Assembly (NCBI RefSeq): GCF_018682675.1 | Contig: NZ_JAFMTR010000109.1 | Location: 1-64,000 of the forward strand | Direction: 5' to 3' | DNA from: Sphingopyxis soli | GTDB taxonomy: Bacteria; Pseudomonadota; Alphaproteobacteria; Sphingomonadales; Sphingomonadaceae | DNA length: 64,000 bases | In this document: positions 26,192 to 54,296 of the stretch, one piece after another | Layout: every line of letters begins with the position of its first letter | Position numbering within the stretch: the stretch's first letter is position 1 | The notes under the pieces: generated by a model | The model's database searches: none | Seen by the model: the letters and a program-made list of their open reading frames with translations, nothing else | Told to the model about the DNA's origin: nothing | Made by a program: the position numbers and the translations under genes

Positions 26192-27252
26192 AAACCGCTC
26201 TCCTTCAATCCGATGTCATAGTCGCCGCCCTGTTGCGCCGCGATCATCCGCGACGCGCGGCTCGCTTCCTCGGGCGCCGGGATCGCGAGCTCCCAGCCCT
26301 TGGCGGTGTCGAGACGGCCGCCATTGTCGTTTTCGGCGCGCCGGTCCTGCAGCGCGGCGGTCGGGTCGCCCGCCGCCGCGAGCGTCCGCCCGTCGCCACC
26401 TGCGCCCCCGCCGTCCTTCGCCAGCGACGCGCGCGGCAGGATTGCCGGGATCGCCTCCATTCCGCTGTAGCGGCCCGAAAAGGCGCCCGGCGTGCCCCAG
26501 CGGCCCGGCCAGCGATAGAAGATATGCGCGCCGATCTGCGCGAGCTTGACCAGCTTGGGCGCCCAATAGGGCGACACATAATTGGCGTGATAATGGGTCG
26601 CATAGCCGACCGCGGGCTCGACATAGCCGTTGAGGGCGGCAAGCGCGACCTCCTCGGCTTCCTTCCACGCCTCGGCATTGGGGCGCCGCTTCAGCGAGCC
26701 GTCGCAGGTGAAGCTGAACTGGCACACCGGCCGGTTCACGCCCTGATAGACGACGCCGCACACCGATTTCGGGAAAGCGGGATGCATCATGCGATTGAGC
26801 ACGACCTGCGCGACCGCGCGCCGTCCCTTGACCGGTTCGAACCCGGCCTCGAAATAGACCGCCTGCGTCAGGCATTTGAGCGCGGTCAGCCGCGCGATCT
26901 GGTCGGCGGCCACCGGCTCGAAGGGCCGCGCCTTCACGACCGGGCCGTGGGCGAAGGGAATCGCCTCGTTGCGCGTGATCGCGGTTTCGGGCGCCTCGAC
27001 GATCATCTGCGCGGGGTCTTCGGTCAGCTTGATCAGCTCGACCATCTCGCGATCGAGCTTGGGCGGCGGCGCCGCGTCCTGCGCATGATAGTCGGCATCG
27101 CCGACGCCAAACAGATCACCGAGCTGCGCCCACAGCGCGTTCGAAGTCAGCAGCGACACGACGACGACGATCCCGACGAGCCATAACGCCGTGCGACGAT
27201 TGTCGTCGGCAGCGACGGTGCCATAGCGGCGGGGGGCGACGACTGCGCTCAT
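26188..27252 (-). CDS. SleB-type cell wall hydrolase within the secretion operon
   Basis: 354 residues. It has one membrane segment at about 20-42 (ALWLVGIVVVVSLLTSNALWAQL), so the rest is periplasmic. The hydrolase_2/SleB domain spans about 120-250: LTQAVYFEAGFEP with the likely catalytic Glu, then GRRAVAQVVLNRMMHPAFP and CQFSFTCDG. The C-terminal 100 residues look disordered. SleB-like enzymes cleave peptidoglycan glycan strands. It overlaps the ABC gene upstream and the adaptor downstream by 4 nt each, so it is co-expressed with the exporter. It probably opens the wall for the channel or the giant adhesin; that role is inferred. Confidence 0.87.
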   Translation of the reverse strand: MSAVVAPRRYGTVAADDNRRTALWLVGIVVVVSLLTSNALWAQLGDLFGVGDADYHAQDAAPPPKLDREMVELIKLTEDPAQMIVEAPETAITRNEAIPFAHGPVVKARPFEPVAADQIARLTALKCLTQAVYFEAGFEPVKGRRAVAQVVLNRMMHPAFPKSVCGVVYQGVNRPVCQFSFTCDGSLKRRPNAEAWKEAEEVALAALNGYVEPAVGYATHYHANYVSPYWAPKLVKLAQIGAHIFYRWPGRWGTPGAFSGRYSGMEAIPAILPRASLAKDGGGAGGDGRTLAAAGDPTAALQDRRAENDNGGRLDTAKGWELAIPAPEEASRASRMIAAQQGGDYDIGLKESGL

Positions 27253-30829: not shown

Positions 30830-30943
30830 CTTACTTCCCCTGCATTTCCCTCGGCTGTCTTCGGAGGATCGCGGTGCCTGCCCTTTCGGCCTGCGTTGCT
30901 TCCCCCATTGCGCCCTTTTTCTTTTGGTCCGTCTTCCCTTTGG

Positions 30944-39658: not shown

Positions 39659-40103
39659 CGCCTTTCGGCCCCCCTGCACTTCATCCCCCGCCCCGACGTC
39701 CGGCGAAGACCTGTACGGAGGTCACACCGGACTAAGGCGAGCGGCATCGCGTTCGCGCCAGATGGCCGTCCGAATGCGCAATGTTCGCTTTGTGATCTGC
39801 TAGGTTCTCTTTGGCGACCGATGCCCGCGCGTCATCACTGACCCCGGAAATACAGACCCAGGTCACTGATTCTGCAATGGCAATTTCCGGTATGCGGCCC
39901 TATACTTTGGGGTAGATCGAATAACTTAAGGGTTAAGATTTCCTTAAATTTCACGGATGCGGAGATACAAATCAATAAAAATAGGGACCGTTCGCCTGCA
40001 AATCAAAATTTCCCGGATAATATCGGCCCAATCGGCGAAGTTTTTATGGTTTATTTTTCAATCCGATGAAGGCGATACTTGATCTGTCAAGTACGACGCC
40101 ATC
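39659..40103 (-). promoter_or_regulatory. 445-bp AT-rich upstream region of the adhesin gene
   Basis: No gene is supported. The stretch is much richer in AT than its surroundings, especially 39920-40060. It holds TTTGGGGTAGA at 39906-39916 (CTACCCC on the gene strand), like the boxes near the other secretion genes. It also holds TTAAGG-10-CCTTAA at 39926-39947 and the perfect palindrome ACTTGA-TCTG-TCAAGT at 40077-40092. The last may end the M23 gene or bind a regulator. The promoter of the adhesin operon must lie here. Confidence 0.5.
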
Positions 40104-41087
40104 TTATTCGATGACGCCTTCCGCCTCGAACGTTGCGACGATATCCGGCCCGCGCCGCAGAATATAGCGCCCGGTATAATGTCCTGTCGTCCAGCCGCCG
40201 GGCGGCGCGCGCTTGCCGCTGTATGCGAACCAGCTGAGGCCGCCTCCGGCCACGACGCCCTCCTGGCTGTGCACGATCGCGCCGTCGGGACCCGCGATCG
40301 CGAACGACTGGCGGTCGCCCGCCTTCGCACCCATGGCGTCGACCCACAGGATCAGCGGAGCGTCGCGGCCCGCGAGCCGCGGGGGCGGATCCCGCTCGGT
40401 GACGGCCTTTGCCGGCACGGCGGAGGCAAGGCCTGCGGCGATGACGGCCGTCGGCCGGTAACCGAGCTGCAGCGCGGCGGCGGGCGCCCAGAGGCCGGAG
40501 GGCGCGCCCGTAGCGATGCAGGATGCGTCCGCCGCCCCGCCGGTGAAGGGATCGATCGCCTGACCGCGATGGCGGACCGCGAAATGCAGGTGCGGAAACT
40601 CGCTGTTGCCCGACAAACCGATCAGGCCGATGCGTTCGCCCGCCGCGACGCGCTGCCCCGGACGGACGGCGACGCTGCCGCGCTGCAAATGGCTGTACTG
40701 TGTTTCCCATCCGTCGCCATGGTCGATCACCACGGCATTGCCCGCCTGCTTGTCGGGTGGCGCGGCGCGCTCGGTCACGCTGATGTCGGGCTCGCCATCG
40801 CGGGTGCGCAGCACCAGTCCGTCGCGCGCCGCGAGCACGGCATGGCCCGCCCGCATGTCGGCCATCGTCCGCAGCCGGATGTCGATCCCGTCGTGGCCGT
40901 CGGTCGTCAGTGTTCCGCAACGATAATCGCTCCGTCCCGGCCCCGGATCATGGTCGACGAGTTTCTGGATCAGGCACGTATCGCCCACGCGGCAGTCGGC
41001 GGGAAACATGAAAGTCGGCTCCCCGGCCGGGACCGACACCGCGAGCAGCGCCATGGCGAAGGGAAAGGAAAGCAGGGTCGCGATCAT
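40104..41087 (-). CDS. M23-family metallopeptidase
   Basis: 327 residues with an N-terminal signal peptide (MIATLLSFPFAMALLAVSVPAG). The zinc peptidase domain lies at about 60-190: GHDGIDIRL provides the first His and Asp ligands, VVIDHGDGWETQYSHL follows, and HLHFAVRH is the HxH motif. M23 enzymes cut peptide cross-links in peptidoglycan. The C-terminal 130 residues form a beta-rich domain of unknown role (GPDGAIVHSQEGVVAGGGLSWFAYSGKR). It lies upstream of, and in the same direction as, the giant adhesin, the second wall-active enzyme in this module after the SleB-type protein. Confidence 0.88.
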   Translation of the reverse strand: MIATLLSFPFAMALLAVSVPAGEPTFMFPADCRVGDTCLIQKLVDHDPGPGRSDYRCGTLTTDGHDGIDIRLRTMADMRAGHAVLAARDGLVLRTRDGEPDISVTERAAPPDKQAGNAVVIDHGDGWETQYSHLQRGSVAVRPGQRVAAGERIGLIGLSGNSEFPHLHFAVRHRGQAIDPFTGGAADASCIATGAPSGLWAPAAALQLGYRPTAVIAAGLASAVPAKAVTERDPPPRLAGRDAPLILWVDAMGAKAGDRQSFAIAGPDGAIVHSQEGVVAGGGLSWFAYSGKRAPPGGWTTGHYTGRYILRRGPDIVATFEAEGVIE

Positions 41088-41543
41088 CGGGATGGGGCGT
41101 GCCTCGCGGCTATGCTTCGAGGTCCGTCACCGAACGGCTCCGCGGCCCGACGCCGGCCGCCGCCCGGGGGGTCTGGGCGGCGGACACGGCTAGCCGGCCG
41201 AGGGACCGACTGAACTCGGGAACCTGCCAGAAGCCAGAGAATGGTACGGAATTCCCTCGATTTGCCGGCAGAAATGCCGTTGACGTTTGCTCTGCAAGCC
41301 CGCTTGGCCAAAGCGAGCGTCGTGTGGATGATTCTGTCCGCCACCCTGCAACCGGAATGGCGGAAACCCACGTTTCCCGCCATTCCCAGATGGGGACATT
41401 GGCAAATTCGAGGAAAAAAAGATGGCGCCGGCGCCTCGCGAGAGGGGTCGTCGCCACGCATAAAAAGGAGGGCAGGCCGCGGCCTGCCCTCCAGTCTGCA
41501 GAGGTCCGTCGAGGAAACGGGCTCCCCGTACGAAGCCTTGTCC
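41088..41543. other. 456-bp intergenic stretch with a long hairpin
   Basis: This lies between the M23 gene start and the RTX gene stop. Short open frames here lack ribosome-binding sites. A strong hairpin occurs at 41354-41386: GGAATGGCGG(AAA), 6-nt loop, (TTTC)CCGCCATTCC with one bulge. It has no T-tract. GGCGCCGGCGCC at 41424-41435 is a perfect palindrome. The RTX terminator at 41461-41492 occupies the right end. No RNA family is recognised. Confidence 0.45.
41461..41492 (-). terminator. Terminator of the RTX gene
   Basis: GGAGGGCAGGCCGCGGCCTG continuing to CCCTCC (41467-41492) is a perfect 26-nt palindrome. On the minus strand it is followed immediately by TTTTTA. It lies 51 nt past the RTX stop and is a textbook factor-independent terminator. 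Confidence 0.88.
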
Positions 41544-43733
41544 TCAGACGAACGTGATCATGTCATAGGACGCATTGCCCTGGCTGTACGCGTTGATCGC
41601 GGCAACCGAGTCATAGGCGCCCAGTGCAGCGAGAGCCTGGATCGGAGCCGAGGCGCCTTCCCAGAAGTCTTCGATCAGCACCGCACCGGCCGAGGTGAAG
41701 ACAAAGACATCGAGTCCGTCGCCCTGGCCATCCCAGTCGCCGGTGATGACGCCCATGTCGTTCGCCGGGTCGAAGCCCGCGTCGACATCGAACACCAGCG
41801 TGTCACGGTTCGCGAGGTTGAAGTCGCGGCCGTCACCCAGGTTGAACGGAGCACCGATCACGTCGTTGCCAAATCCCGGCGAGTTGTCGGTCGAGTCGAA
41901 CTTGAACAGGTCCTTGCCTGCGCCGCCCGACATATGATCGTCGCCTTCGCCGCCGGTGATGGTGTCGTTGCCCGATTCACCTTCGAGGTTGTCATCGCCC
42001 ACGCCACCATTGATGGTGTCGTTGCCGGTGTCGCCGCGAATGGTGTCGTCGCCTTCATCGCCGTTCATGTTGTCGTTGCCGAAGCCGCCCGACATATAGT
42101 CGTTGCCATCGCCACCGAACATGGTGTCGTTGCCGCCACCCGGGTTACCCAGGTTTTCGTACAGCGTGTCACCATACATGATGTCGTCGCCGTCACCACC
42201 GTACATGGTATCGTTGCCGGCATCACCGGCGAGCTGGTCGTCCCCGTCGTTGCCGCTGACGACATCGTTGCCGGCACCACCATAGATCAGGTCGTTGCCG
42301 TCATCGCCCGACAGATTGTCGGCGCCGTTGTTGCCCTGGATCAGGTCGTCGTCGTCGCCACCCGAAACAACGTCGTTGCCGTTGCCGCCGGTGATGTTGT
42401 CGAAGCCCGAGCCGCCCGAGATGACGTCGTTGCCGTCGTCGCCCGACAGGGTGTCGTTGTCGTCATTACCTTCGATGACGTCGTCGCCTTCGTCACCGTT
42501 GATGATGTCGTCGCCGCTGCCGCCCGAGATGAAGTCGGCATCGGTGTTCGACGGATCGAGCGGATCGAAGAAGGGATCCCCGTTGCCGCGGATCACGTCG
42601 TCGCCGGCATCGCCATACAGGTCGTCGTCGCCGCCTTCGCCCCAGATCACGTCGTTGCCGCCGTCACCATGGACCAGGTCGTTGCCGTCGTTGCCGTTCA
42701 GCGTGTCATCGTCGGCTCCGCCGCCGATGTCGTCGTCGTCGGCGCCGCCCTGGACGAAGTCGAGACCCGCGCCACCACGGATGTAGTCGGCCCCGGCATC
42801 GCCGTCGATTTCATCGTCGCCGTCTTCACCGAGCAGGACGTCGTCGCCTTCTCCGCCGTCGAGCTGGTCGAAGCCGGTGCCGCCCAAAACGGTGTCGTTG
42901 CCGTCATCGCCCCAGAGCAGGTCGTCGCCCGAGCCGCCGAGGATGGTGTCGCCGCCGCCCTGGCCGAAGACCTGGTCGTCGCCTGCGCCGCCCTCGATGT
43001 AATCGGCATGGCCGTTACCCGGGTTGTAGCCGCTCTGGTTGTAGGCAAAGTCCGGATCGGCCTTGCGGTTGACACCATTGTCGCCGAAAATGACGTCGTT
43101 GCCGTCGCCACCATACAGCTGGTCGACACCGTTGCTGTTGGTGCCGCCTTCAATATAGTCGTCGCCCGTGCCGCCGAGGACCACGTCGGTTTCGGTGCCG
43201 CCATAGAGGTTGTCCTGGCCGCTGCCGCCGTCGATAAAGTCGTTGCCGGCATTGCCTTCGACACGGTCATCGCCCGACTGACCATAGAGCGTGTCGTTGC
43301 CTGCATCGCCTCGGATATAGTCGTTGCCGCCACCGCCGTAGCCGGTGTCGTCGCCCGCGCCGCCGAGCAGCGTGTCGTTGCCGTCGGCCGCGCCATTGTC
43401 GATGCCGACATATTGGACGTTTCCGGGGCCGATGACGACGAAATCGGCCTGGTCGCCGACCAGCGTGTCGTTGCCGGTTCCGCCATCGATACGGTCGTTG
43501 CCATAACGACCGATGACGGCGTCATTGCCGGCGTCGCCGTACAGGTCGTTGTCGAGGTTGTTGCCGTAGACGGTGTCGGCACCGCCGTTGCCACGCGCAT
43601 TGTACGGCAGCGTGGCGGTGGAAACGATTGCGTTCAGATCGATGAAGTCGACCGCATTCGTTCCCAGAACCTGACCGCGAGCGGTCGGATTCTTCGCCGC
43701 ATTCGGTGCGTTCGAAGGAGTCACAGTTGGCAT
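41544..43733 (-). CDS. RTX calcium-binding protein, type I secretion substrate
   Basis: 729 residues from the ATG at 43733 (GAGG upstream). The N-terminal 50 residues (MPTVTPSNAPNAAKNPTARG) are followed by about 54 nonapeptides of the GGxGxDxUx type (for example GGSGDDLLWG, GGAGNDVVSG) covering residues 60-625. These fold as calcium-bound beta-rolls after export. The last 100 residues are the non-repetitive secretion region ending in hydrophobic ...NASYDMITFV. No enzymatic domain is visible. It could be a surface layer-like or matrix protein; that is inferred only from the all-repeat architecture. The TolC of its exporter lies just upstream, with the other exporter genes divergent. Confidence 0.93.
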   Translation of the reverse strand: MPTVTPSNAPNAAKNPTARGQVLGTNAVDFIDLNAIVSTATLPYNARGNGGADTVYGNNLDNDLYGDAGNDAVIGRYGNDRIDGGTGNDTLVGDQADFVVIGPGNVQYVGIDNGAADGNDTLLGGAGDDTGYGGGGNDYIRGDAGNDTLYGQSGDDRVEGNAGNDFIDGGSGQDNLYGGTETDVVLGGTGDDYIEGGTNSNGVDQLYGGDGNDVIFGDNGVNRKADPDFAYNQSGYNPGNGHADYIEGGAGDDQVFGQGGGDTILGGSGDDLLWGDDGNDTVLGGTGFDQLDGGEGDDVLLGEDGDDEIDGDAGADYIRGGAGLDFVQGGADDDDIGGGADDDTLNGNDGNDLVHGDGGNDVIWGEGGDDDLYGDAGDDVIRGNGDPFFDPLDPSNTDADFISGGSGDDIINGDEGDDVIEGNDDNDTLSGDDGNDVISGGSGFDNITGGNGNDVVSGGDDDDLIQGNNGADNLSGDDGNDLIYGGAGNDVVSGNDGDDQLAGDAGNDTMYGGDGDDIMYGDTLYENLGNPGGGNDTMFGGDGNDYMSGGFGNDNMNGDEGDDTIRGDTGNDTINGGVGDDNLEGESGNDTITGGEGDDHMSGGAGKDLFKFDSTDNSPGFGNDVIGAPFNLGDGRDFNLANRDTLVFDVDAGFDPANDMGVITGDWDGQGDGLDVFVFTSAGAVLIEDFWEGASAPIQALAALGAYDSVAAINAYSQGNASYDMITFV

Positions 43734-43800
43734 TTCGCTATCCTCTTCATTGTTGGGTCGCAAAGATGCGGTTTCACCGAGTCGGGCAAAATCACACCCC

Positions 43801-43827
43801 CATGGCCCGATCGGACGCCGGGCCATG
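43801..43827 (-). promoter_or_regulatory. Hairpin in the leader or promoter of the RTX gene
   Basis: CATGGCCC and GGGCCATG form a perfect 8-bp inverted repeat with an 11-nt spacer, 68-94 nt before the RTX start. A GCGGGGGTAGAG box at 43841-43852 lies just beyond. It could stabilise the mRNA leader or be an operator. The rest of the gap (43734-44002) shows nothing else. Confidence 0.4.
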
Positions 43828-44002
43828 AACCTTGGATATGGCGGGGGTAGAGGGGGGCATATTCCTGCTTGGGGACATGGCCGAAGATTTTCCGAACTGC
43901 TTCATTTTGGAGCAGTTCTTGTCTTGAAACAGCAAAGCGCGCGGCGGCGACCGGACCACCGCGAAGGGCGGCCCGACCTGCCATTTCGACGAGGTCGTGG
44001 CG

Positions 44003-45613
44003 CTATTTCGACCGGCGTCCGAGGGCCGATGCGGACGGCCGTCCCCCGACCGATGCGGCGGACGTCGAGGCTTCCCCGCCCGCCGGCCCGGCGGCAGGAC
44101 TCGCCGCGGCGGGCGCGCTCCCGAGGGCGGACCGCTCGGGCCGGGCAGCGCCGGCGGGAAGCGCCGCAGCCGCATCTGCGCGCGCAATCGTTTCGCCCAC
44201 CGCCACCGCCGGACGGCCGAGCAGCGACGCGCCCGGACGCAGCGCTGCCGCGCTGGCGGTACAACACCGCCCCTCGAGAATTGCATTTGCGTCGAGCCGA
44301 CCGATCGCCGCGAGAAGTCCCGCGCGCGCCACGAACTCGTTGCGATTGGCGCGTTCGAGCGTGACCCGCGCGGTCAGCAACTCGTTCTGCGCGTCGAGAA
44401 CATCGGTCAGCGTCCGGTTCCCGCCGAGCGCCTCCTTCTTCAGCCCTTCGGCCGCCTGCTCGATCGCGGCTACCGCCGCCGTCGCGGTGACGATCGTGCT
44501 CTTCGCCGATTGCCACCTTGTCCAGTAACTCGCGACCTCCTCGCCGACGGTACGGGCGGCGATGTCGGTCTGCGACAGGCGCTGGTCGCGGACAGCGCGT
44601 GCGCGGCCGATTTCGGCATGGTCGCGCGGCACGAAAATCGGCACGCGAACCTCGAGCCCGCCATAGAGCGAGGAGCGATCGTCGGGCAGCTTGCCGGTGA
44701 ACAGGTTCGCCACCCCGCCGGCCAGATATTCATAGCCGCCGACCGCATCGACCTGCGGAAACAGCGCGCCCGCCGCGAACTGCACGCCGGCCTTTCCGGC
44801 CTCGGCATTAAGCCGCGCGGCGCGCAGTCGCGGCGCGTTCTCGAGCGCGATCTTCTGGGCCGAGGCAAGCGAGTCGGGCACGGGCGCAAGCGCGGGAAGC
44901 GCGGGAAGCGTCGTCGCCGACTGCCCGCTCACGGTCCGGAACTCGTAGCCGTTGACGTTGAGCTCCTCGGTCGCGGCGAGGACGCCGGCCTGCGCCGTGG
45001 CGAACCGGGCCTTCGCCAGCTCCTCATCGGTGCGGGTCGCCTCGCCGAATTCCAGCTTGCGCGACGTCGCGCGCAGCTGTTCGCCGATCGCGTCGCTTTG
45101 CTGCTGCGAATATTCCAGCACCTTGCGCTGGAGATGAACGTCGGCGGCGGCGGTGAGCAGTTCGAGCAGCGTGTCCGAAATGGTCGCATCGAGTCCCGCT
45201 TCGGCCGCCGCCATCTCGGCGGTTGCGATCTGCACCGAATTATAGGTGCGATTGCCATCGTAGAAGCGCAGACGCGCCTCGACCGCTCCGTTGGCCGACG
45301 TATATTTCGCATCGCCGCGGCCGCCATTCTTGACGTCGATCTCGCGCCGCTGGACGGTTCCGGTCGCCTCGACCGTCGGGAAATAGCCGGCCTCCGCGGT
45401 GGCGAGTCGCGCCTTGGTGATTCGCACCTGCTGGCGCTGCGCTTCGATGTCGGGATTGGTTTCGATGACGGTCCTGGCAAGCGAGGCCATCGTGCTCGAC
45501 GGCGCGCGTCCCGGGGCCGGAGCCTGCGCCTGCAAAAGCGCGGGAATCGCCGCTATCGCGAGTGCGCCGGACGCGCATAGCAGGCGCGCGCTTCTGGTCG
45601 ATGGTCCCTGCAT
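44003..45613 (-). CDS. TolC-family outer-membrane channel of the second type I system
   Basis: 536 residues. The start at 45613 (MQGPSTRSARLLCASGAL) has AGGAGGGGG and a signal peptide ending ...LLQAQA. The TolC fold covers about 45-440: TVIETNPDIEAQRQQVRITKARLATAEAGYFPTVEA and the hallmark GNRTLTDVLDAQNELLTARV. Unusually, about 90 residues follow the fold. They start with a CC pair and are then Ala/Pro/Ser-rich, probably a periplasmic tail. A larger upstream frame to 45772 is discarded because it is Arg-rich and crosses the promoter region. It is divergent from the regulator/exporter genes and upstream of the RTX gene. Confidence 0.9.
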   Translation of the reverse strand: MQGPSTRSARLLCASGALAIAAIPALLQAQAPAPGRAPSSTMASLARTVIETNPDIEAQRQQVRITKARLATAEAGYFPTVEATGTVQRREIDVKNGGRGDAKYTSANGAVEARLRFYDGNRTYNSVQIATAEMAAAEAGLDATISDTLLELLTAAADVHLQRKVLEYSQQQSDAIGEQLRATSRKLEFGEATRTDEELAKARFATAQAGVLAATEELNVNGYEFRTVSGQSATTLPALPALAPVPDSLASAQKIALENAPRLRAARLNAEAGKAGVQFAAGALFPQVDAVGGYEYLAGGVANLFTGKLPDDRSSLYGGLEVRVPIFVPRDHAEIGRARAVRDQRLSQTDIAARTVGEEVASYWTRWQSAKSTIVTATAAVAAIEQAAEGLKKEALGGNRTLTDVLDAQNELLTARVTLERANRNEFVARAGLLAAIGRLDANAILEGRCCTASAAALRPGASLLGRPAVAVGETIARADAAAALPAGAARPERSALGSAPAAASPAAGPAGGEASTSAASVGGRPSASALGRRSK

Positions 45614-45968
45614 TTGCCCCCTCCTGAGACATCGTCGATGCGAGCGGCGACCCCGGCGATCTCGATGGCCGAAGGATAAGCCGCGGGGGGAAGGCGGGAA
45701 ACTACCCAAACGGATATGTCCGAGTGGATAATAGACTCGGTCCGCCGAATCGAAATAGACAAGGCTCGTCACCTGCCGCCGTCACGGCAGGGGCGCTGCC
45801 CGCGGATGTCCGTCCGTCGGCGGCAAAGTCAAATGCTTAAGGCATATCGGCAAGGCGCGTCGTCCCATCCGTACCGGGACAGCGCGCCGGACATCATGGT
45901 CGCGCGTGCATTTCCTGTTGCGGGATTCTTACCCCCGCTACGGGTCCAATGTTTCATGGGGGGCCATA
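45614..45968. promoter_or_regulatory. 355-bp divergent promoter region
   Basis: It separates the TolC/RTX genes (minus) from the regulator/exporter genes (plus). It holds ACTACCCAAA at 45701-45710 (TTTGGGTAG on the minus strand), the inverted repeat CCGAGT-9-ACTCGG at 45720-45740, CCTGCCG-6-CGGCAGG at 45772-45791, and TTACCCCCGCTA at 45928-45939 just before the regulator start. The TACCC/GGGTA elements resemble those near the adhesin and regulator genes. No gene is supported. Confidence 0.45.
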
Positions 45969-47171
45969 ATGTCTTCGGATGCCGAACTTTCGACCCTTTT
46001 CGCCGAGGCGGGCGGCGACGTCTTCTACCCCGCCGGGCCCAGTTTCGAACCCGACCGTGGCGAGCCGATCGCCGGGCAGCAGCGCGACGCCGACATCATG
46101 GCGAACACGCGCAAGGTGTGGCACGATTTTCTGGGCCAGTTCGAGATCAGTTCGGCGATCCTGACGGTCGCATTCGCGGCGGGCGGTGCGCAGCGGCACG
46201 CTTTCCTGCTCGGTTTCGACCATGTTCGCGGCGACGCGCAGGCGACGCAGCGGCTGCTCGCGATGATGGACGACCTGTGGTCGCGCATCGGCGAACAGCC
46301 GGTCCATCATTTCCAGATCGCCGGAACGGGCTTCGGCGCCGAACTCGGCGCACATGACGCGCGCGACGATACGGCGGCGGCGCTTTATGATTGCGGCATC
46401 GCGCTGCAGATGAAGCGCGGCGGCGCCAGCATCCGCGCGCTCTTTTTCCGGCAGGGCGGATCGGCGCGGTTCAGCGAGCGCGATGTCGCCTCGCTGCAGA
46501 TGGTCGCGCCGCTGCTCGCCGATTCGGCGACCCACGCCGCACAGCTCGCGCGCCAGTCGCGCCGCTCGGCCATGCTCGAGGCAATGTTCGACCGCGTCTC
46601 GCTGTCGATGGCGCTGCTTTCGGCGGACGGACGCCCGCTGTTCATGAACAGCGCGGCGACCGCGCTCGTCGGCCAGCGCAAATGGCTGATCCGGTCCGCC
46701 GACGGCGCGATCGTCGCCGCCAATCCGCAGCAGGCGAAGGAACTGCGCGAAAGCATCCGCCGCGCCGCGACCGCACCGCAGCCGGTCGAGGATGTGTTCC
46801 GGCTCGACTGCAGCACCGGCGAATGGCGCCTCGCCTACGTCGTCTCGGCGAAGTCGCGCTCGGGCGATGTCACCGCGCGTTGCGCGATGCTGATCCTGAT
46901 GGGTCCGGGCAAGGTCGACGCACCGAGCTCGCTGCTCGAAGCGCTGGGGCTGCTGCCGTCCGAACAGCGCTTCCTGGGCCAGTTCCTGAAATCTAGCAGC
47001 CTCGGCAACGCCGCCGAAGGGTGCGGACTGTCGGAAGAGACCGCGCGCACCTACCTCAAGCGCGTCCGCGCCAAGCTGGGCGTGCATCGCCAGATGGAGC
47101 TGGCGGGCCTGATCTCGGGTCTCGTCCTGCCGCTCCACACGGGCGACGGCCCGGCGCTGCGGGATCGCTGA
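45969..47171 (+). CDS. LuxR-type transcriptional regulator
   Basis: 400 residues starting MSSDAELS after a GGGGGG ribosome-binding site. The C-terminal 65 residues are a LuxR-like helix-turn-helix (LLPSEQRFLGQFLKSSSLGNAAEGCGLSEETARTYLKRVRAKLGV). The N-terminal 200 residues match no sensor I recognise. Residues 205-330 (MLEAMFDRVSLSMALLSADGRPLFMNSAA) look like a PAS fold. It is followed by the ABC exporter gene after one base, so it probably controls the secretion genes on both sides of the divergent promoter. Confidence 0.86.
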   Translation: MSSDAELSTLFAEAGGDVFYPAGPSFEPDRGEPIAGQQRDADIMANTRKVWHDFLGQFEISSAILTVAFAAGGAQRHAFLLGFDHVRGDAQATQRLLAMMDDLWSRIGEQPVHHFQIAGTGFGAELGAHDARDDTAAALYDCGIALQMKRGGASIRALFFRQGGSARFSERDVASLQMVAPLLADSATHAAQLARQSRRSAMLEAMFDRVSLSMALLSADGRPLFMNSAATALVGQRKWLIRSADGAIVAANPQQAKELRESIRRAATAPQPVEDVFRLDCSTGEWRLAYVVSAKSRSGDVTARCAMLILMGPGKVDAPSSLLEALGLLPSEQRFLGQFLKSSSLGNAAEGCGLSEETARTYLKRVRAKLGVHRQMELAGLISGLVLPLHTGDGPALRDR

Positions 47172-47172
47172 C

Positions 47173-48960
47173 ATGGCGTTCAATGCCCTGACTGCCGCCT
47201 TCGGCCGCGAGCGGACCGGCAACATCCTGACCGACAGCCTGCTTCCGCAGCGCGCGATCGCCGGCAAGCTCATCTTCTTCTCGATGATCACCAACCTGGC
47301 GGCCCTCGCCATGTCGTTGTTCATGATGCAGATTTTCGATCGCGTGCTGTCGAGCCAGAGCAAGGACACCCTGTTCTTCCTCGTCCTCGCGGTGACGATG
47401 GTGATCGGGCTCGGTTCGATGCTCGACGGCATCCGGCAGCAGGTCGCGAACCGGGTCGGGACCTGGCTCGCGCAGCGGCTCGGCCCGTCGCTTCTCGTCC
47501 GTTCGCTCGAACAGCGGCTGATCGCCCCGAACACGCGGCTCGAGGCGCTTCGCGAACTGGCGCAGGTCAAGAATTTCATCTCGACCCCGACGGTCTTCAG
47601 CGTCGTCGATATGCTGTGGGTGCCGCTCTACCTGTTCATCGTCTTCCTGCTCCATCCGCTTTTCGGCCTGATATCCGCGGTCGGTGCAGTGACCCTGTTC
47701 GGGCTGACCTGGTATAACGAGCGCATCACCCGGGCTGCGATCAGCGAGGCGCAGGCGCTTGGCGCGCGCAACATGCAATATGCCGAATCGCTCGTCCGCA
47801 ACAGCGAGGCGATCGACGCGATGGGGATGGCCGACGACACCGTCGCGCACTGGGCGAACCGATATTATGAAGAGACCAATTCGGTCGACCGCACCCAGTT
47901 CCAGTCGAGCAAGATCCTCGCCTGGATGAAGTTCATCCGCAATTTCGTCCAGATCGCTCTGCTGGGCACCGGCGCGCTGCTCGTGCTCGACCAGCAGATC
48001 ACCGGCGGCGCGATGATCGCCGGCTCGATCCTCATCGCGCGGCTGCTCGCGCCGATCGAAGCCGCGATGAGCTATTGGAAGCAGTTCGTCCTCGCACGCG
48101 AGAGCCTGCGCCGCCTGTCGCGCTTCTGCGACCTGCCGCGCCCGCGTCCCTCGCAGATGTCGCTTCCGAAGCCGACCGGAGCGATGGCGGTCGAACGGTT
48201 GAGCTATGCCGCGCCCGGAATGAAGGGCGCGATCCTGAAGAATGTCAGCTTCGCGATCGATGCAGGCACCGCGCTGGCGATCGTCGGTCCGTCGGCGTCG
48301 GGCAAGACGACGCTGTCGCGGCTCCTTGTCGGCGTCCTCAAGCCGAGCGCGGGGCATGTCCGCCTCGACGGGGCCGACACGTTCGACTGGATGCGCAGCG
48401 ACTTCGGCCCGAACGTCGGCTATCTGCCGCAGGACGTCGAGCTGCTGCCCGGCAGCATCCGCCAGAACATCGCGCGCTTCCGTCCCGGCGCGAGCGACGC
48501 CGATGTGATCGCAGCAGCGAAGCTGGCCGATTGTCACGACATGATCCTTCAGCTCGACGGCGGCTATGACTGCGTGCTGACCGACGGCGGCCACCAGCTT
48601 TCGGGTGGGCAACGCCAGCGCGTCGGCCTGGCCCGGGCGCTGTTCGGCATGCCGCCGCTCGTCGTGCTCGACGAACCCAACGCCAGCCTCGACGCGCGCG
48701 GCGACGCAGCGCTGCTCGGCACGATCAAGAAGCTGAAGGCGATGAACGTGACGACGATCATCGTCTCGCACCGATCGAACCTGCTCGAGCTTGCCGACAA
48801 GATCCTGCTGATGATCGACGGGCAGGCCGCGAAATTCGGCGACGCGCGCACCGTGGTCGAGGAGATGGCCGGGAAGCGGCGGGTGATCCAGCCGGGCGGC
48901 GCGCCGGGCGGTCCGAAGACGCCTCCGGCAATGGCGAACGAAAAGGGGATGGGGGCGTGA
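47173..48960 (+). CDS. Type I secretion ABC exporter (PrtD/RsaD class)
   Basis: 595 residues with no peptidase-like N-terminal domain. Membrane helices span about 30-300 (FFSMITNLAALAMSLFMMQIFDRVLSS). The ATPase has Walker A GPSASGKTT, signature LSGGQRQR and Walker B LVVLDEPNASLD. This class exports proteases, lipases and S-layer proteins with a C-terminal signal, fitting the neighbouring RTX protein. The last 50 residues are Pro/Gly-rich. It is followed by its adaptor with a GTGA overlap. Confidence 0.94.
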   Translation: MAFNALTAAFGRERTGNILTDSLLPQRAIAGKLIFFSMITNLAALAMSLFMMQIFDRVLSSQSKDTLFFLVLAVTMVIGLGSMLDGIRQQVANRVGTWLAQRLGPSLLVRSLEQRLIAPNTRLEALRELAQVKNFISTPTVFSVVDMLWVPLYLFIVFLLHPLFGLISAVGAVTLFGLTWYNERITRAAISEAQALGARNMQYAESLVRNSEAIDAMGMADDTVAHWANRYYEETNSVDRTQFQSSKILAWMKFIRNFVQIALLGTGALLVLDQQITGGAMIAGSILIARLLAPIEAAMSYWKQFVLARESLRRLSRFCDLPRPRPSQMSLPKPTGAMAVERLSYAAPGMKGAILKNVSFAIDAGTALAIVGPSASGKTTLSRLLVGVLKPSAGHVRLDGADTFDWMRSDFGPNVGYLPQDVELLPGSIRQNIARFRPGASDADVIAAAKLADCHDMILQLDGGYDCVLTDGGHQLSGGQRQRVGLARALFGMPPLVVLDEPNASLDARGDAALLGTIKKLKAMNVTTIIVSHRSNLLELADKILLMIDGQAAKFGDARTVVEEMAGKRRVIQPGGAPGGPKTPPAMANEKGMGA

Positions 48961-50321
48961 ACATTCCGGTGCGTCTCGACGCCGGCAGCGAGGCCGGTCC
49001 GCTCGCCCTCCCTGCACCGGCGGCGGATTTCACCGCGCCAAAGGTCGGGGGGTCGATGCGACTCGCGATGGTCGCGATCGGGCTGTTCGCCGTCGCCTTC
49101 GGTATCTGGAGCTGGGCGGCACCGCTCAACAGCGCCGCCATCGCCTCGGGCTTCCTCGAAGCGGCGGGCGGCGGGCGCCGCACCGTGCAGCATCTGGAAG
49201 GCGGCATCGTCAGCAAATTCCTGGTCGTCGAGGGGCAGCAGGTCCGCGCCGGCCAGCCGCTGGTGCTGCTCGACGCGACGCAGAACGACGCATCCGACGC
49301 CGCGCTGCGCTCCAGCTATTATGGCCTCCTCGCGCAGGACGCGCGGCTCACCGCCGAACGGCTGCGGCTCGACCGGATCAGTTACCCGGCCGAACTGCTC
49401 GCGGCCGCAAGCGATCCCGAGGTCAAGGAAATCATCGCCGCATCGAACGCCGAATTCATTTCGCGCCGCCGCGGGCTGTCCGAACAGTCGGCGATCCTGT
49501 CGCAGCGGATCAGTCAGGCGAACGCCGACATTCGCAGTGCGGGCGCGCAGATCGTGGCGCTCGGCGACCAGGCCAAATTGCTCGACGAAGAGGAAATGGG
49601 CGTAAACATGCTCGTCGACGAGGGGCTGGAGCGCAAGTCGCGCTTGCTCGCGCTGCAACGTCAGAAATCGGCGGTTGCCGGCGAACGCGGCAAGCTGACC
49701 AACAATATGGACCGGCTGCGCGACGCGATCGGCGAAACGCAGGCGCAGATGACGTCGCTGCGCGGACAGATGGTGCTCGACGCGGCGCAGCAGCAGCGCG
49801 AGGTTCAGCTCAAGATCGCCGAGGCGCGCGAGCAGCTCAAGGTCAGCACCGACGTCCGCAACCGCAAGCAGATCCTGGCCCCGATCGACGGACGAGTCGC
49901 GAACCTGCGGCTGATCACGCCGGGCGGCGTGCTGGGATCGGGGCAGCCGATCCTCGACATCGTCCCGACGTCGGAAAAAATCGTCGTATCGGCGCGGCTG
50001 CGTCCCACCGACATCGACATGGTCCATGCGGGACTGAAAGCGGAAGTGAAGCTGACGCCCTACAAGGCGCGGGTGATCCCGAACCTGATCGGCACGGTGC
50101 GCGAGGTGAGCCCCGATGCGATCTACGACCAGGACGCGCACCAGCTATATTACAAGGTGATCGTCGAAATCTCTCCCGAGCAGCTCAAGCGCTATCCCGA
50201 CGTGCGGCTCATGTCGGGGATGCCCGCCGAAGTGTTCATCGATCTCGGGTCCAGCTCGCTACTGCAATATCTCTTCCAGCCGATGATCGACAGCTTCAAC
50301 CGATCGTTCCGGGAATCATGA
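48957..50321 (+). CDS. HlyD-family type I secretion adaptor (second system)
   Basis: 454 residues with a GTG start overlapping the ABC stop by 4 nt. A single membrane helix (MRLAMVAIGLFAVAFGIWSW) lies at about 36-55. RRTVQHLEGGIVSKFLVVEGQQVRAGQPLVLLD is the conserved adaptor segment. A long coiled-coil region spans about 115-300, then the barrel domain (ILAPIDGRVANLRLITPGGVLG) and a C-terminal tail (SSSLLQYLFQPMIDSFNRSFRES) typical of PrtE-type adaptors. It links the ABC exporter to the TolC encoded on the other strand. Confidence 0.94.
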   Translation: MNIPVRLDAGSEAGPLALPAPAADFTAPKVGGSMRLAMVAIGLFAVAFGIWSWAAPLNSAAIASGFLEAAGGGRRTVQHLEGGIVSKFLVVEGQQVRAGQPLVLLDATQNDASDAALRSSYYGLLAQDARLTAERLRLDRISYPAELLAAASDPEVKEIIAASNAEFISRRRGLSEQSAILSQRISQANADIRSAGAQIVALGDQAKLLDEEEMGVNMLVDEGLERKSRLLALQRQKSAVAGERGKLTNNMDRLRDAIGETQAQMTSLRGQMVLDAAQQQREVQLKIAEAREQLKVSTDVRNRKQILAPIDGRVANLRLITPGGVLGSGQPILDIVPTSEKIVVSARLRPTDIDMVHAGLKAEVKLTPYKARVIPNLIGTVREVSPDAIYDQDAHQLYYKVIVEISPEQLKRYPDVRLMSGMPAEVFIDLGSSSLLQYLFQPMIDSFNRSFRES

Positions 50322-50376
50322 CCCGGGCGGCGGCAGCGGCCGGTGGCTAGCCGGCCGCGAAAGGGGGGAAAAACAG

Positions 50377-52443
50377 TTGTACGGTTACGGAATTCTGTTC
50401 CGGGGCGTCGGCTACGCCGTGCAGGGAACTGCACTGGGCGTCGCGGCCGCGATCGGGATCGGCGATTCCGCACCGCTGGACCCGCCGCCGCGGTTCACGC
50501 CCGACCTTCCGCGTCCGTCGCCGGCGATCGATCGGCCCTCTGTCGATCCGTCCGATACGGGTGGGCCGGGCGCGATTGCACTGTCGGCGACGCCGACGCG
50601 CGTCGGCCCGTTCCTGTTCGAACCGGTCGGCGCATTGCAGCCGCCACATCGCTGGCGGACTTCGGCGTCGCCCAGCCCGCCCGCGGATGCCCCGGCTGCG
50701 GTCGCAGCGGCGTCCGAAACGCTGGTCCACGCCGCGCCTCCGGCTGCGCCGGCCTTTGCGGCACCCGATCTGCCGCAGCCTCCGCCCCCGGCCGCCACAT
50801 CCCCCGAGCTCCCCGTCCCGGCCCTCCTCCCCGCTGCTCTCCCACTTCCCGCCGCCATCGTCCTTGCCGCTCCGGCGGCGGACAGCGCGCCTTCGGGCGC
50901 GGTGCCCCTGGCCGATGCCCCCTTTGCAGCCGAACAGGAAGCGCACGCCATGGACGCGGGATTTCCGGCTTTTGACGCCGATATATCCGCCGTGTCCTGG
51001 CTCGGCGATCAGGGGACACAGCGACAGGCGCTCGCCGCGCCGCCCGACCTGGAGCGGCCCGGCGGCGAAGCCTGCCCCGAAACAGCCTGCGGGCCCGACG
51101 GCGGCAATGGCCCAAGCTCGCTGATCCCCGACAGCGCGGGCGGCGTCTCCCCGATGCATGCGCCGCTTCTCGATCTGCCGGCGGGGCATGGCGAGGGGGG
51201 CGTGACGCTCGCCGCGGCAGCGCCGCGGCCCGAGGCGTCCGAACTCGGTCAAAGCGCCCCTGCCGCCGAGGCGCCGCCGCCCGAAATCGGCCCCGAGGGC
51301 AGCACGGTAGAAGGCGAGGCACAGGCCAAGGAAGTCGACCTGCTGAGCCCCGAACCGCTACCGCGCGGCGGGCTGGCGCTGTCGGGCGGCTATTCGTCGA
51401 TCGAGGGGCCGGTCGGATCGATCAAGCTGTCGCGCACCAATATCAGTGGCCCCGGCCGCGACATCACCGCACTGTTCCGCTATTCGGACATCCAGACACA
51501 GGCCGAGGTCGGTTATTCCGACGCCAATTTCATGGGCAGCCGCTTCGCCTTCGCGCCGACCCTGTTCTGGTCGCGCTCGTCGGCGATCGGGTTCGGCAGC
51601 GACAAGCAATCCTCCGAATTCCGGCAGGATGCGCGCGGCGCGAATATATTGATCGGCAAGGCGATCAAGGGCGGCTTTCGTGCGACCGCGAACTATCGCT
51701 TCGCGAAAGAGAATTTCCGCATCAAGGACAAGGATACCGTCTGCGATCCGGCACTGCTCGGCGGCGCCTTCTGCAACGCGCTCGGCCGCTCGCGCAGCTC
51801 GATCCTCAGCCTCGCGCTCAGCCTCGACCGGCGCAACAGCGCGGTCGATCCGACGCGCGGTTTCCAGGTCCGCATCGTGCAGGATCTCGCCGGACCGGGC
51901 GGCACATCGCGCTATGCCAAATGGCGGATCGGCGGCACCGCCTACGCAGGCCTCGGCAGCGACCTCGTCCTCTCGCTCGGGGTCGAGGGCGGGTTCCTGA
52001 CCTCGCTCGGCGGGCGCGAGGTGCCGCTGTTCGACCGCTTCTACATCGGCGGCAATGCGATGCGGGGTTTCGATCTGCGCGGCCTCGGCCCCAAGGTCGT
52101 GCCGACCGCCGCGGCGCCGGGCGAAACCACCGCGATCGGCGGTCGCGCATACTATGTCGCGCGTTTCGAGGTGTCGGTCCGGCCGGGCGCAGGGACGAAC
52201 CGCTTCGGCATCACCCCCAGCCTGTTCGTCGACGCCGGATCGGTGTTCGGCGCGCGCAAGTCCGACCTCGCGCCCGGCGAAATGCTGATCGGCAATTCAG
52301 CCAAGCCGCGGGTCGCGGTCGGCATCGGCGTGTCGCTCAACACGCCGGGCGGCAAGTTCCGCATCAATTTCGCCGAACCGGTCGTGCGGCAGGAAGGCGA
52401 CCGCTCGAAGCGCTTCTCGATTTCCTTCGGTACGGCTTTTTAG
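50377..52443 (+). CDS. Omp85/BamA-TamA-like outer-membrane barrel with Pro/Ala-rich N-terminal arm
   Basis: 688 residues from a TTG start with AGGGGGG 8 nt upstream. Residues 325-688 are an Omp85-type barrel: LALSGGYSSIEGPVGSIKLS, YSDANFMGSRFAF, the loop-6 motif FYIGGNAMRGFDLRGLG, and the terminal strand RFSISFGTAF. The preceding 300 residues are Pro/Ala-rich, low in complexity and contain no recognisable POTRA domain. The usual periplasmic part of BamA, TamA or TpsB proteins is thus missing. The N-terminal hydrophobic stretch is a poor signal peptide, so a later start (for example ATG 50950) is possible. It follows the adaptor gene by 55 bp and should belong to the secretion operon; its role in export or surface assembly is unknown. 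Confidence 0.82.
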   Translation: MYGYGILFRGVGYAVQGTALGVAAAIGIGDSAPLDPPPRFTPDLPRPSPAIDRPSVDPSDTGGPGAIALSATPTRVGPFLFEPVGALQPPHRWRTSASPSPPADAPAAVAAASETLVHAAPPAAPAFAAPDLPQPPPPAATSPELPVPALLPAALPLPAAIVLAAPAADSAPSGAVPLADAPFAAEQEAHAMDAGFPAFDADISAVSWLGDQGTQRQALAAPPDLERPGGEACPETACGPDGGNGPSSLIPDSAGGVSPMHAPLLDLPAGHGEGGVTLAAAAPRPEASELGQSAPAAEAPPPEIGPEGSTVEGEAQAKEVDLLSPEPLPRGGLALSGGYSSIEGPVGSIKLSRTNISGPGRDITALFRYSDIQTQAEVGYSDANFMGSRFAFAPTLFWSRSSAIGFGSDKQSSEFRQDARGANILIGKAIKGGFRATANYRFAKENFRIKDKDTVCDPALLGGAFCNALGRSRSSILSLALSLDRRNSAVDPTRGFQVRIVQDLAGPGGTSRYAKWRIGGTAYAGLGSDLVLSLGVEGGFLTSLGGREVPLFDRFYIGGNAMRGFDLRGLGPKVVPTAAAPGETTAIGGRAYYVARFEVSVRPGAGTNRFGITPSLFVDAGSVFGARKSDLAPGEMLIGNSAKPRVAVGIGVSLNTPGGKFRINFAEPVVRQEGDRSKRFSISFGTAF

Positions 52444-52543
52444 CGTCGCGACGGGCAAAGGTACGGCTGTTCGCGCAGAGCGAGGTCGTTGCGCCAGGCC
52501 ACCGCTATCATTAGCAAGGCGACCCAACGGACAGGAGACCGGG

Positions 52544-53377
52544 ATGCCCACCGCCAAACTTGCCGCCATGCTGCTGCTGACGCTGCAGGCCGGATCGACG
52601 CCCGCCCCGCCCGCGGCGGTACCCGACCCCCGCCGCCCGGCGCCGACCTTCGACACCGTCGCGCCGGCGCTGCCCGAACTGAAACACCCCGCGGTGCTGA
52701 TCGTCAGCAAGACCAACGGCTATCGCCACGACAGCATTGCCCAGGCGGTGCCCGCGATCGAAAAACTGGTGAAGGCGCGCGGCTGGAGCAGCTTCGCGAC
52801 CGAGAACGCCGCGGTGTTCAATCCAGAGAGCCTGGCCAAGTTCGACGTCATCGTCTTCGCCAATGCCAGCGGCGACATCTATACCCCCGAGCAGCGCGCC
52901 GCCCTTCGGGCGTTCATCGCGCGCGGCGGCGGTTTCGTCGGCCTCCACAGCGCGGGTGACGGCAGCCACCCCGACTGGTTCGTCCGGATGCGCGGCAACG
53001 GCAATTTCATCGGCCACCCGGGCGGCGCCGACCAGTTCCAGGCGGCGTGGCTGAGCGTCAAGGGGCGCGGCCATCCCGCGACCCGGCACCTGCCCGAACG
53101 CTGGCGCTGGACCGACGAATATTACAGCTGGGACGCCCCGCCCGCCGCCGACGCGCATGTGGTAGCGTGGCTCGACGAGGGCACGCTGCGGCTCGATCCG
53201 AAACTGCGGATGGGCGACGGCCATGCGCTGATCTGGTGGCGCTGCGAGGGCCGTGCGCGCATCTTCTACTCGGCGCTCGGCCACCGCGCCGAGGCATGGC
53301 GCGACGCGACGCACCTGCAGATGGTCAACGGCGCGATCGGCTGGGCGGCGCGCAAGGAAGGAACGGGCTGCAACTAG
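52544..53377 (+). CDS. ThuA-like domain protein
   Basis: 277 residues with a possible signal peptide (MPTAKLAAMLLLTLQAGSTPAP). The core is the ThuA/class I glutamine-amidotransferase-like fold: VLIVSKTNGYRHDSI, FDVIVFANASGDIYTPEQRAALRAFIARGGGFVGLHSAGD and DEYYSWDAPP. ThuA-like proteins are tied to trehalose and other sugar use, but the reaction is not established. No catalytic Cys of amidotransferases is seen. GGAGACCGGG lies before the ATG. Its stop is in the palindrome shared with the convergent N-acetyltransferase gene. Confidence 0.85.
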   Translation: MPTAKLAAMLLLTLQAGSTPAPPAAVPDPRRPAPTFDTVAPALPELKHPAVLIVSKTNGYRHDSIAQAVPAIEKLVKARGWSSFATENAAVFNPESLAKFDVIVFANASGDIYTPEQRAALRAFIARGGGFVGLHSAGDGSHPDWFVRMRGNGNFIGHPGGADQFQAAWLSVKGRGHPATRHLPERWRWTDEYYSWDAPPAADAHVVAWLDEGTLRLDPKLRMGDGHALIWWRCEGRARIFYSALGHRAEAWRDATHLQMVNGAIGWAARKEGTGCN

Positions 53378-53391
53378 GGTCCTGACCCTAG
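53374..53391. terminator. 18-nt palindrome joining two convergent stop codons (second copy)
   Basis: CTAGGGT-CCTG-ACCCTAG has the same 7-bp stem and the same 18-nt length as 60-77. It places the TAG of the ThuA-like gene (53375-53377) and of the N-acetyltransferase (53388-53390, minus) at identical positions. No T-tract is present. Confidence 0.55.
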
Positions 53392-54296
53392 GCGACGACC
53401 TCCGCCGTCGCCGCGCGCTCGATGACCCGGCGCCAGCCCGGTTCGGGGATCAGCAGAAAGATCTCGCGCAGCGCCGCCTCGATCGCATCGGCCGACAGGT
53501 GGCGTTGATCGATGCCGCCGTCGGCGCGGCGGATCGTCAGCCGGTTGTCGCGCAGGCCGTACCGCGCCTCGTCCGTCGTCCGTGCCGCAATTAGCTGGTG
53601 GCGGAAATGCGAGGCGGGATGCTGCGATGTGTACCAGTTGCCGACCTCGTAATCGATCGCGGGCGCGGGCGCATCTTCAAGGTCGTACAGCACCCGCCAC
53701 TCGTCCGCGACCGCGGCCTCGACGCGGTGGCCGCCGCCGTGCGGCGTGACGCGATAGGTTTCGTGCCGCGTCGGCTGCGCCGCGCCGGGCAGGTCCATGG
53801 CCAGCGGCTGCGGCGGCACCGTCGCGCCGAAGCCGACGTCGACCAGCCACGGCCGTCCGTCGAGCCTGACGCGGATGGTCATGTGGGTGCGCGGGGTCGC
53901 CGGAGCGTCGTCGGGCAGCATCCAGCGCACCCGCCCGATCAACCCCTCGGCGTCGAAACCCAGTTCGGAGAGGACGCGAAGGAACAGCGCATTCTGCTCG
54001 AAGCAATAGCCGCCGCGCCCACGGTCGACCAGCTTCGCCTCGATCGCCTCGGGGGCAATGTCGACCCCCGCGCCGGTGAGCGCGTCGAAGGATTCGAACG
54101 GAATCGCGGCCTGGTGCGCGGCCTGGAGCCATGCAAGCCCCTCCTGCGTCGGCGCAGGCCGTCTGGCGAGCCCGATGCGCGCCAGATAGCGCGACAGGAA
54201 GGATGGCCGTCCCGCACCGTCTTCGGGGCGATCTTCGGCCGGAAGCGGCGGCTGGCTGTGGTGCAACATCGGCAAAGGCTCCTCGAAACGAATCAT
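53388..54296 (-). CDS. Arylamine N-acetyltransferase
   Basis: 302 residues from the ATG at 54296 (AAGGG upstream); a TTG at 54320 is a weaker alternative. It is a cytosolic enzyme moving acetyl groups from acetyl-CoA to arylamines and hydrazines. The catalytic triad is clear: Cys98 in RGGYCFEQN, His138 in RTHMTIRV and Asp153 in LVDVGFG. The length is slightly above the usual 275-280 because of an N-terminal extension. A perfect CTCAA-N6-TTGAG palindrome lies 20-35 nt upstream, suggesting redox control. It converges with the ThuA-like gene. Confidence 0.93.
   Translation of the reverse strand: MIRFEEPLPMLHHSQPPLPAEDRPEDGAGRPSFLSRYLARIGLARRPAPTQEGLAWLQAAHQAAIPFESFDALTGAGVDIAPEAIEAKLVDRGRGGYCFEQNALFLRVLSELGFDAEGLIGRVRWMLPDDAPATPRTHMTIRVRLDGRPWLVDVGFGATVPPQPLAMDLPGAAQPTRHETYRVTPHGGGHRVEAAVADEWRVLYDLEDAPAPAIDYEVGNWYTSQHPASHFRHQLIAARTTDEARYGLRDNRLTIRRADGGIDQRHLSADAIEAALREIFLLIPEPGWRRVIERAATAEVVA

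Follow-up and report, generated by a model that had tools for sequence, protein, structure and literature searches.

The locus considered here raises the question of whether an outer-membrane barrel of the Omp85 family, encoded as the last gene of an exporter operon, can serve as an additional part of a type I secretion system, a route usually described as a three-part conduit. It lies within a 64,000-nucleotide stretch of Sphingopyxis soli DNA (contig NZ_JAFMTR010000109.1, referred to below as the window), from a genome of 3.63 Mb in 116 contigs. As evidenced through gene content, family matches and comparison with related loci, it suggests a variant of PrtD-type type I secretion with a recruited BamA-like barrel, four-part instead of three-part.

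Gene content and organization of the locus

All six genes proposed for this site in the initial annotation were found intact when the reading frames were re-read and matched to families. The minus strand carries the genes for an RTX protein (41544..43733; 729 aa) and a TolC-type outer-membrane channel (44003..45613; 536 aa), and the plus strand those for a PAS/LuxR-type regulator (45969..47171; 400 aa; matched by TIGR00229, at 22.5 bits, and by GerE, at 19.1 bits, each under its cut-off), a PrtD-type ABC exporter (47173..48960; 595 aa), an HlyD-type periplasmic adaptor (48957..50321; 454 aa) and a POTRA-less Omp85-family barrel (50377..52443; 688 aa). The two groups diverge from a spacer for which the length already given, 355 bp, was confirmed. 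The plus-strand genes are closely packed, with 1 nt between regulator and ABC genes, a 4-nt overlap between ABC and HlyD genes and 55 nt ahead of the barrel gene, which begins with a TTG start preceded by an AGGGGG stretch. The PrtD-type assignment follows from matches of the ABC protein to TIGR01842 (611 bits, cut-off 510) and of the adaptor to TIGR01843 (345 bits, cut-off 209), and from the TolC-type channel, which exceeds the cut-off of PF02321 (162.8 bits) while falling under that of TIGR01844 (200.8 bits, cut-off 225.15). The AlphaFold2 model of the channel has a long helical part and four strands.

The RTX protein matches PF00353 with 306.9 bits over 18 stretches. The description of it as almost only nonapeptide repeats stands, but the figure of about 54 does not: 49 nonapeptide-like matches are obtained with a loose pattern, the final one lying outside the repeats near the C-terminus, and 20 with the strict pattern GGxGxDx. 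When the repeats and C-terminal ends of 21 loci were compared, the end was found to be conserved and secretion-signal-like; with its repeats and this C-terminus, the protein is a candidate type I substrate. A further gene, absent from the initial annotation, encodes an M23 peptidase with a further C-terminal region (40104..41087, minus strand; 327 aa; PF01551 81 bits). A small open reading frame in the interval between the RTX and M23 genes (41084-41461, minus strand) was not counted as a gene, having good matches only in locus L043, in two pieces, and marginal ones in four other places.

No RNA family matched in 40000-53500. Scans for promoters gave 2 sites against 0.8 in shuffled sequence, and those for terminators 5 against 4.7; among the hits of the terminator-like scan, near shuffle level, is a hairpin of 11 pairs closed by a loop of three bases, which falls in the gap separating RTX from TolC (window 43894-43918). 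The divergent spacer contains a block (45696..45760, no strand assigned) with the inverted repeat CGGATATGTCCG at its middle; an alignment of the window with 11 other loci shows the block to be conserved. In loci L056 and L057 the repeat reads TGGATATGTCCA, both arms having changed together to TGGA...TCCA. A 25-bp part of the block, allowing up to three mismatches, occurs at one site per genome, at the cassette, in 7/7 barrel-bearing genomes, and in none of seven other genomes searched, among them the five with barrel-less systems; a reversed control gave 0. The block is probably an operator of the regulator, serving one divergent transcript pair.

Linkage and distribution of the cassette

When genome contigs from 84,980 species were scanned for two peptide patterns, 94 relatives of the barrel were returned. 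Of the 80 retained, 15 (L043-L057) belong to the POTRA-less family and the other 65 are mostly of BamA length. In all 15 POTRA-less loci, with barrel identities of 47-98%, the genes for RTX protein, TolC, regulator, ABC exporter, HlyD and barrel occur in identical order and orientation, the TolC gene of L049 being split over two overlapping frames. The full six-gene block is also kept in L159, from another genus, and in L162, and the conserved linkage on which the proposed partnership had been staked beforehand therefore holds. The 65 remaining loci, 16 of them shorter than 15 kb, have no cassette match above 70 bits nearby, the single one seen being an ABC protein at 69 bits. Bradyrhizobium matches were rejected as cassette members, as they are frames of 605-851 aa that do not have cassette genes nearby. 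Eight loci (L035-L042) were scanned as well; L035 is the genome of L047 and stands outside the 15, and the other seven show an Omp85 match only.

Among 397 Sphingomonadaceae genomes, HlyD (E <= 1e-80) and the regulator (E <= 1e-20) were found in an identical set of 12, seven with the barrel and five without, at most three or four candidates being scored per genome in these surveys. The barrel is separated clearly in this search, with E <= 1e-190 in 7/397 genomes and a next best match of 3.5e-81, and a class-wide search of 385 genomes at E <= 1e-78 found it in none besides its own genome. HlyD identity is at least 66% in the seven barrel-bearing genomes and 42-55% in the five others. The named loci and those of the genome surveys overlap in part and are not all independent. 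In two of the five barrel-less loci, TolC and RTX-matching frames are divergent from regulator, ABC and HlyD genes, and the remaining three have a single run of RTX, RTX, M23, ABC, HlyD, regulator and TolC. As these five related exporters do without it, the barrel is not needed for export as such. The proposal of an Omp85 barrel as a partner of the exporter is thus borne out by linkage within one group of systems but is not general to the exporter type, 5/12 related systems having no barrel. The barrel-less loci (L154-L158) have at least two neighbouring RTX-matching frames, and one RTX gene is seen beside TolC in the barrel-bearing loci; loss of a second RTX gene may accompany gain of the barrel.

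In a tree of joined ABC and HlyD sequences from 21 loci, the 16 barrel-bearing systems form one clade (100/99), 15 of them having been found via the barrel itself, so that they do not show the rate of barrel loss. Since the barrel-bearing systems are a single clade, the gain of barrel and TolC tail counts as one event and possibly a coincidence, and the barrel is best read as a late addition to the exporter, made once. A single origin and the existence of barrel-less systems would also suit an unrelated hitchhiker kept by operon structure. We consider this very doubtful, because a barrel-blind search with HlyD and the regulator showed that every genome with HlyD identity of at least 66% carries the barrel (7/7), signature residues of the barrel are invariant in 21 sequences down to 35% identity, and the TolC tail was seen in the same lineage only.

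The M23 gene is found inside or beside the cassette in 12/12 cassette genomes of the 397, with no match in the 2/2 genomes of the genus lacking the cassette that were searched. It adjoins the RTX gene in 13 of the 15 named loci, the copies of L056 and L057 having been found on a second look. L044 and L049, both barrel-bearing and both from metagenome-assembled genomes, gave no M23 match genome-wide at E <= 1e-15, and L046, a close relative of both, has one. The M23 gene is usual in the cassette, not obligatory.

A gene for a Pro-rich protein adjoins the RTX gene in L159 (15925-16773, plus strand), L057 (2-700, minus strand) and L056 (2-430, minus strand), the three barrel-bearing loci that the ABC and HlyD tree does not place on the Sphingopyxis branch. 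The protein has 282 aa in L159, where its gene is placed between RTX and M23, and is cut by the end of the stretch in L057 and L056, whose versions match that of L159 at 41% and 53%. Visual inspection shows no clear signal peptide, and a GGYYIID near the end of the protein resembles the GGYxFFD of barrel tails. The window holds another type I system on the minus strand (24920-39679), with HlyD (24920-26191), a PF07486 cell-wall hydrolase (26188-27252), an ABC exporter (27249-29435) and TolC (29432-30829), adjoining an open frame of 2911 aa that matches DUF5801, Ig/cadherin-like domains and, weakly, VWA; we take it to be a LapA-like adhesin system. Both exporters of the window therefore neighbour cell-wall hydrolase genes, M23 at 40104-41087 and PF07486 at 26188-27252.

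The barrel, the TolC tail and their shared motif

The barrel protein matches the Omp85 domain alone in a Pfam scan (PF01103, 171 bits, residues 355-688), and in an NCBIfam scan it matches BamA and TamL models, all under their cut-offs (TIGR03303 181 bits against 297); no POTRA family was matched in either. An AlphaFold2 model built on a 21-sequence alignment places 16 strands across residues 331-687, where most ten-residue blocks have a mean pLDDT of 70-92, and predicts residues 1-327 to be unstructured, with pLDDT under 50 save for two residues. The protein thus runs from an N-terminal hydrophobic segment through a disordered Ala/Pro-rich tail, ending at about residue 327, to the barrel. With 16 strands, PF01103 and an R563-G564-F565 that is invariant in 21 sequences, it belongs to the Omp85 superfamily, and RGFDLR and F-x-D-x-G are likewise invariant in the alignment, which reaches down to 35% identity. 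It is set apart from BamA proper by the lack of N-terminal POTRA domains in family scans and the predicted disorder of residues 1-327, from TpsB/FhaC by PF01103 being its only Pfam match and BamA its best PDB match, and from noNterm Omp85 proteins by its N-terminal tail, 58-408 residues long across 91 members.

Those 91 relatives, of 419-769 aa and with Omp85 as their sole Pfam family, were recovered among the best 120 of 281 proteins in a protein search; the family (P0002-P0092) is bounded by a gap in E-value from 1.1e-67 to 8.1e-49, beyond which POTRA-bearing proteins start. In the contig scan, the closest named match of the barrel protein is from Sphingopyxis sp. H073 (94% over the best segment). 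Foldseek also gives BamA as the best match (6t1w, E 1.7e-19), with a TM-score of 0.78 by target length to the isolated BamA barrel 7nre. In a 48-row tree with modest support, an arbitrary root and two long rows, from which L004 was left out for want of an alignable match, the 17 family rows group together (support 88/62; 91% of 200 bootstrap trees), and the branch-length distance of the family to sphingomonad BamA is smaller than that of the Bradyrhizobium BamA rows. One member with a very long branch, P0092, is a 456-aa relative named Cypionkella, a genus of the Rhodobacterales. A separate BamA-length gene is present in the genome carrying the window (C28, an 896-aa frame) and was also recovered by the family search. 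With moderate confidence, and exact ancestry excepted, the protein appears to be a BamA-type barrel stripped of its POTRA domains.

The first 30 residues (window 50377-50475, plus strand) are conserved family-wide, with the pattern QxAxxxALGxAA. They contain a weak signal-like segment only, whereas a typical Sec signal peptide is present in most of the BamA and TolC proteins used for comparison; a lipobox or cleavable signal seems doubtful, as no lipobox was seen by eye and the signal-like segment is weak. That this N-terminus is conserved yet not of the typical Sec kind, which leaves no obvious export route to the periplasm, counts against the reading preferred below.

Conservation along the barrel differs from that of BamA mainly on one side. 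Against a BamA set of the 29 best-matching sequences, the two sets being unmatched for divergence and some turns only two or three residues long, mean conservation is 0.59 versus 0.80 for the seven periplasmic turns, 0.73 versus 0.77 for the eight surface loops and 0.73 versus 0.78 for the strands. Because the periplasmic turns have lost conservation relative to BamA and the outer loops and strands are little changed, a surface-side role is favoured for the barrel. The main rival to such a role is that the barrel is a dedicated outer-membrane insertase, in effect a private BamA, for TolC, with the motif tail of the channel (described below) acting as a targeting signal on the nascent protein. 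Its nearest relatives by sequence, tree and fold are, after all, BamA proteins, the gate strands b1 (0.86) and b16 (0.81) remain conserved, and Sam50 is described as still assembling barrels when its POTRA domain is missing (PMC4104836). The less conserved side is, however, the very one on which a substrate or partner would be expected, and the five barrel-less relatives keep a tail-less TolC that manages without such a helper.

The TolC of the window extends beyond its last core helix in a tail (residues about 447-536) that is predicted to be disordered, with pLDDT under 50 at 449-528 and 531-536. The C-terminal ends of TolC proteins lie in the periplasm. The initial annotation had described low-complexity tails on both outer-membrane proteins, of about 90 residues on TolC and about 300 on the Omp85 protein, and both are present, the latter spanning residues 1-327. 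In barrel-bearing loci TolC continues for about 75-95 residues past its core; the five barrel-less loci have at most 37 residues past the same point and no motif, the end in L155 showing one vague resemblance. A motif match in L155 lies on the opposite strand, outside TolC. When 21 genomes of the genus were searched with a profile of the TolC tail, it was found in 4/21, the same four that have the barrel, the other 17 having no barrel; no further protein with a tail of this type appeared at E <0.01, the best further match (E 0.0122) containing internal stops.

Three copies of a short motif, RPxxSxLG, are present in the TolC tail of the window, at residues 459 (44216..44239), 491 (44120..44143) and 525 (44018..44041), all on the minus strand. 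Among the best 120 of 145 TolC homologues, 96 have tails of at least 45 residues, and these hold 258 copies of the loose form [RK]P..[SA].LG, compared with 0.155 in shuffled tails, at three copies in 66 tails and two in 30; the strict form RP..S.LG accounts for 238 copies, and the motif is absent from the TolC cores of the same 120. The 24 homologues with shorter ends have one copy in six cases and none in 18. In P0122, a near-identical relative of the window TolC, the last G of copy 2 is lost. The barrel protein of the window has a single copy, RPEASELG (51226..51249, plus strand; residue 284), 44 residues ahead of the barrel.

Across the family, the motif is found once in 32 of the 91 barrel tails (shuffled mean 0.306) and never inside the barrels, these members being drawn from the best 120 of 281 proteins; in 31 of these tails its distance to the barrel is 44-50 residues, and in the remaining one 68. 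The 32 tails are related sequences, so their count overstates the independent evidence, and as the other 59 have no motif, direct motif-to-motif contact cannot be general. Between the window and its closest relative L043, changes at first, second and third codon positions number 21/17/49 in the TolC tail and 19/15/35 in the Omp85 tail; with third positions changing most, both tails appear to be translated and under some constraint. Chance or mis-called tails are ruled out by these changes together with conservation of the motif across species. The shared motif lends weight to the earlier guess of a role for both tails, tempered by its absence from 59/91 barrel tails, and it likewise supports coupling between TolC and the barrel, as far as sequences allow such coupling to be read.

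The distribution of the motif also bears on what the barrel does. TolC is the other outer-membrane protein of the cassette and its tail was seen only alongside the barrel in the loci examined, as an insertase for TolC would lead one to expect, yet the occurrence of the motif in 32/91 barrel tails is odd for a targeting signal, and on balance this rival is unlikely, if to be taken seriously. A motif common to both tails could instead mean that they bind a third party, such as the adaptor, the cell wall or the M23 peptidase, with the barrel doing a separate job in the same pathway. The M23 gene is indeed a usual neighbour, but the five systems that have no motif tails contain M23 and HlyD just the same, and the L044 and L049 systems retain three motif copies with no M23 match in their genomes, which makes this reading improbable. 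The least probable of the alternatives is self-export, in which the barrel would be no more than an operon neighbour of the exporter and would carry its own N-terminal tail to the cell surface in the manner of a patatin-type (PlpD) or type Vd protein. The variable region of 58-408 residues before the barrel, unstructured in the model, would be in keeping with self-export; no passenger domain was found by Pfam scan or in the AlphaFold2 model, however, and the motif shared with the TolC tail in 32/91 members points to the same compartment for both tails.

Comparison with known systems and a proposed role

The closest known kind of system is the PrtDEF/HasDEF group of type I systems. The cassette is like PrtD-type systems in its ABC protein, HlyD adaptor, TolC-type channel and RTX substrate with a signal-like C-terminal end, and differs from them in adding an Omp85-family barrel as last gene, a motif tail on TolC, usually an M23 peptidase, and a dedicated PAS/LuxR regulator. 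RsaA of Caulobacter is an RTX S-layer protein that is type I secreted and anchored to lipopolysaccharide by its N-terminal domain; it likewise is an RTX-rich product of an alphaproteobacterium, whereas the RTX protein of the cassette is nearly all repeats. The initial annotation had envisaged an S-layer-like RTX sheet at the surface, which the barrel may help to anchor. With BamA the cassette barrel shares barrel sequence, predicted fold, L6 motif and C-terminal strand, but it has a disordered tail in place of POTRA domains, forms its own clade and coexists with a BamA-length gene in its own genome.

POTRA-less Omp85 barrels have been described before as noNterm Omp85 proteins, which have no N-terminal extension and some similarity to the barrels of metalloprotease-Omp85 proteins (Heinz and Lithgow 2014; PMC4104836); the cassette barrel differs from these in its resemblance to BamA and its tail of 58-408 residues. 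Bucl8 is a TolC-like protein with a low-complexity C-terminal tail, a collagen-like region and fibrinogen binding, and a role has been described for the C-terminal tail of OprM (PMC8277102). The resemblance to Bucl8 lies in the low-complexity TolC tail, and neither an RPxxSxLG array nor an Omp85 partner is mentioned in the passage on it; the source is a review covering both tripartite pumps and type I systems (PMC8277102), in the searched part of which the terms 'Omp85' and 'BamA' do not occur. No description of such a system was found in open-access papers, judged by titles and the beginnings of abstracts. What appears to be new is the recruitment of a POTRA-less barrel into type I secretion, the motif array of the TolC tail and the association with M23.

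In the reading preferred here, which couples TolC to the barrel and has the barrel act on the RTX protein from the surface side, and to which a probability of roughly 45% is given, a PrtD-type exporter has recruited a fourth envelope part. A BamA-type, POTRA-less barrel with a long disordered tail became, exact ancestry apart, the last gene of the operon. TolC of the same lineage carries RPxxSxLG two or three times on its disordered C-terminal tail, and a TolC trimer could thus offer up to nine copies of a periplasmic ligand. These may hold the barrel beside the channel, directly or via a common partner. Less certainly, the barrel would then engage the RTX protein as it emerges at the cell surface, by holding it, folding it or nucleating its assembly, and the product would stay cell-bound; where present, the M23 peptidase may open the peptidoglycan for the trans-envelope channel. 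A more specific form, in which the RPxxSxLG ligands of the TolC tail dock the barrel itself as fourth component and the barrel anchors or folds the emerging RTX protein, is possible but is put forward more tentatively.

If this proves true, a BamA barrel would have been converted to the use of another secretion route, as its receptor or foldase at the surface. A POTRA-less barrel of the BamA type would be useful for asking what a barrel alone is capable of, and the motif yields direct predictions that are open to point mutants. The lineage may offer a natural test case for the recruitment of partners by an outer-membrane channel and for the retention of RTX products on the cell surface.
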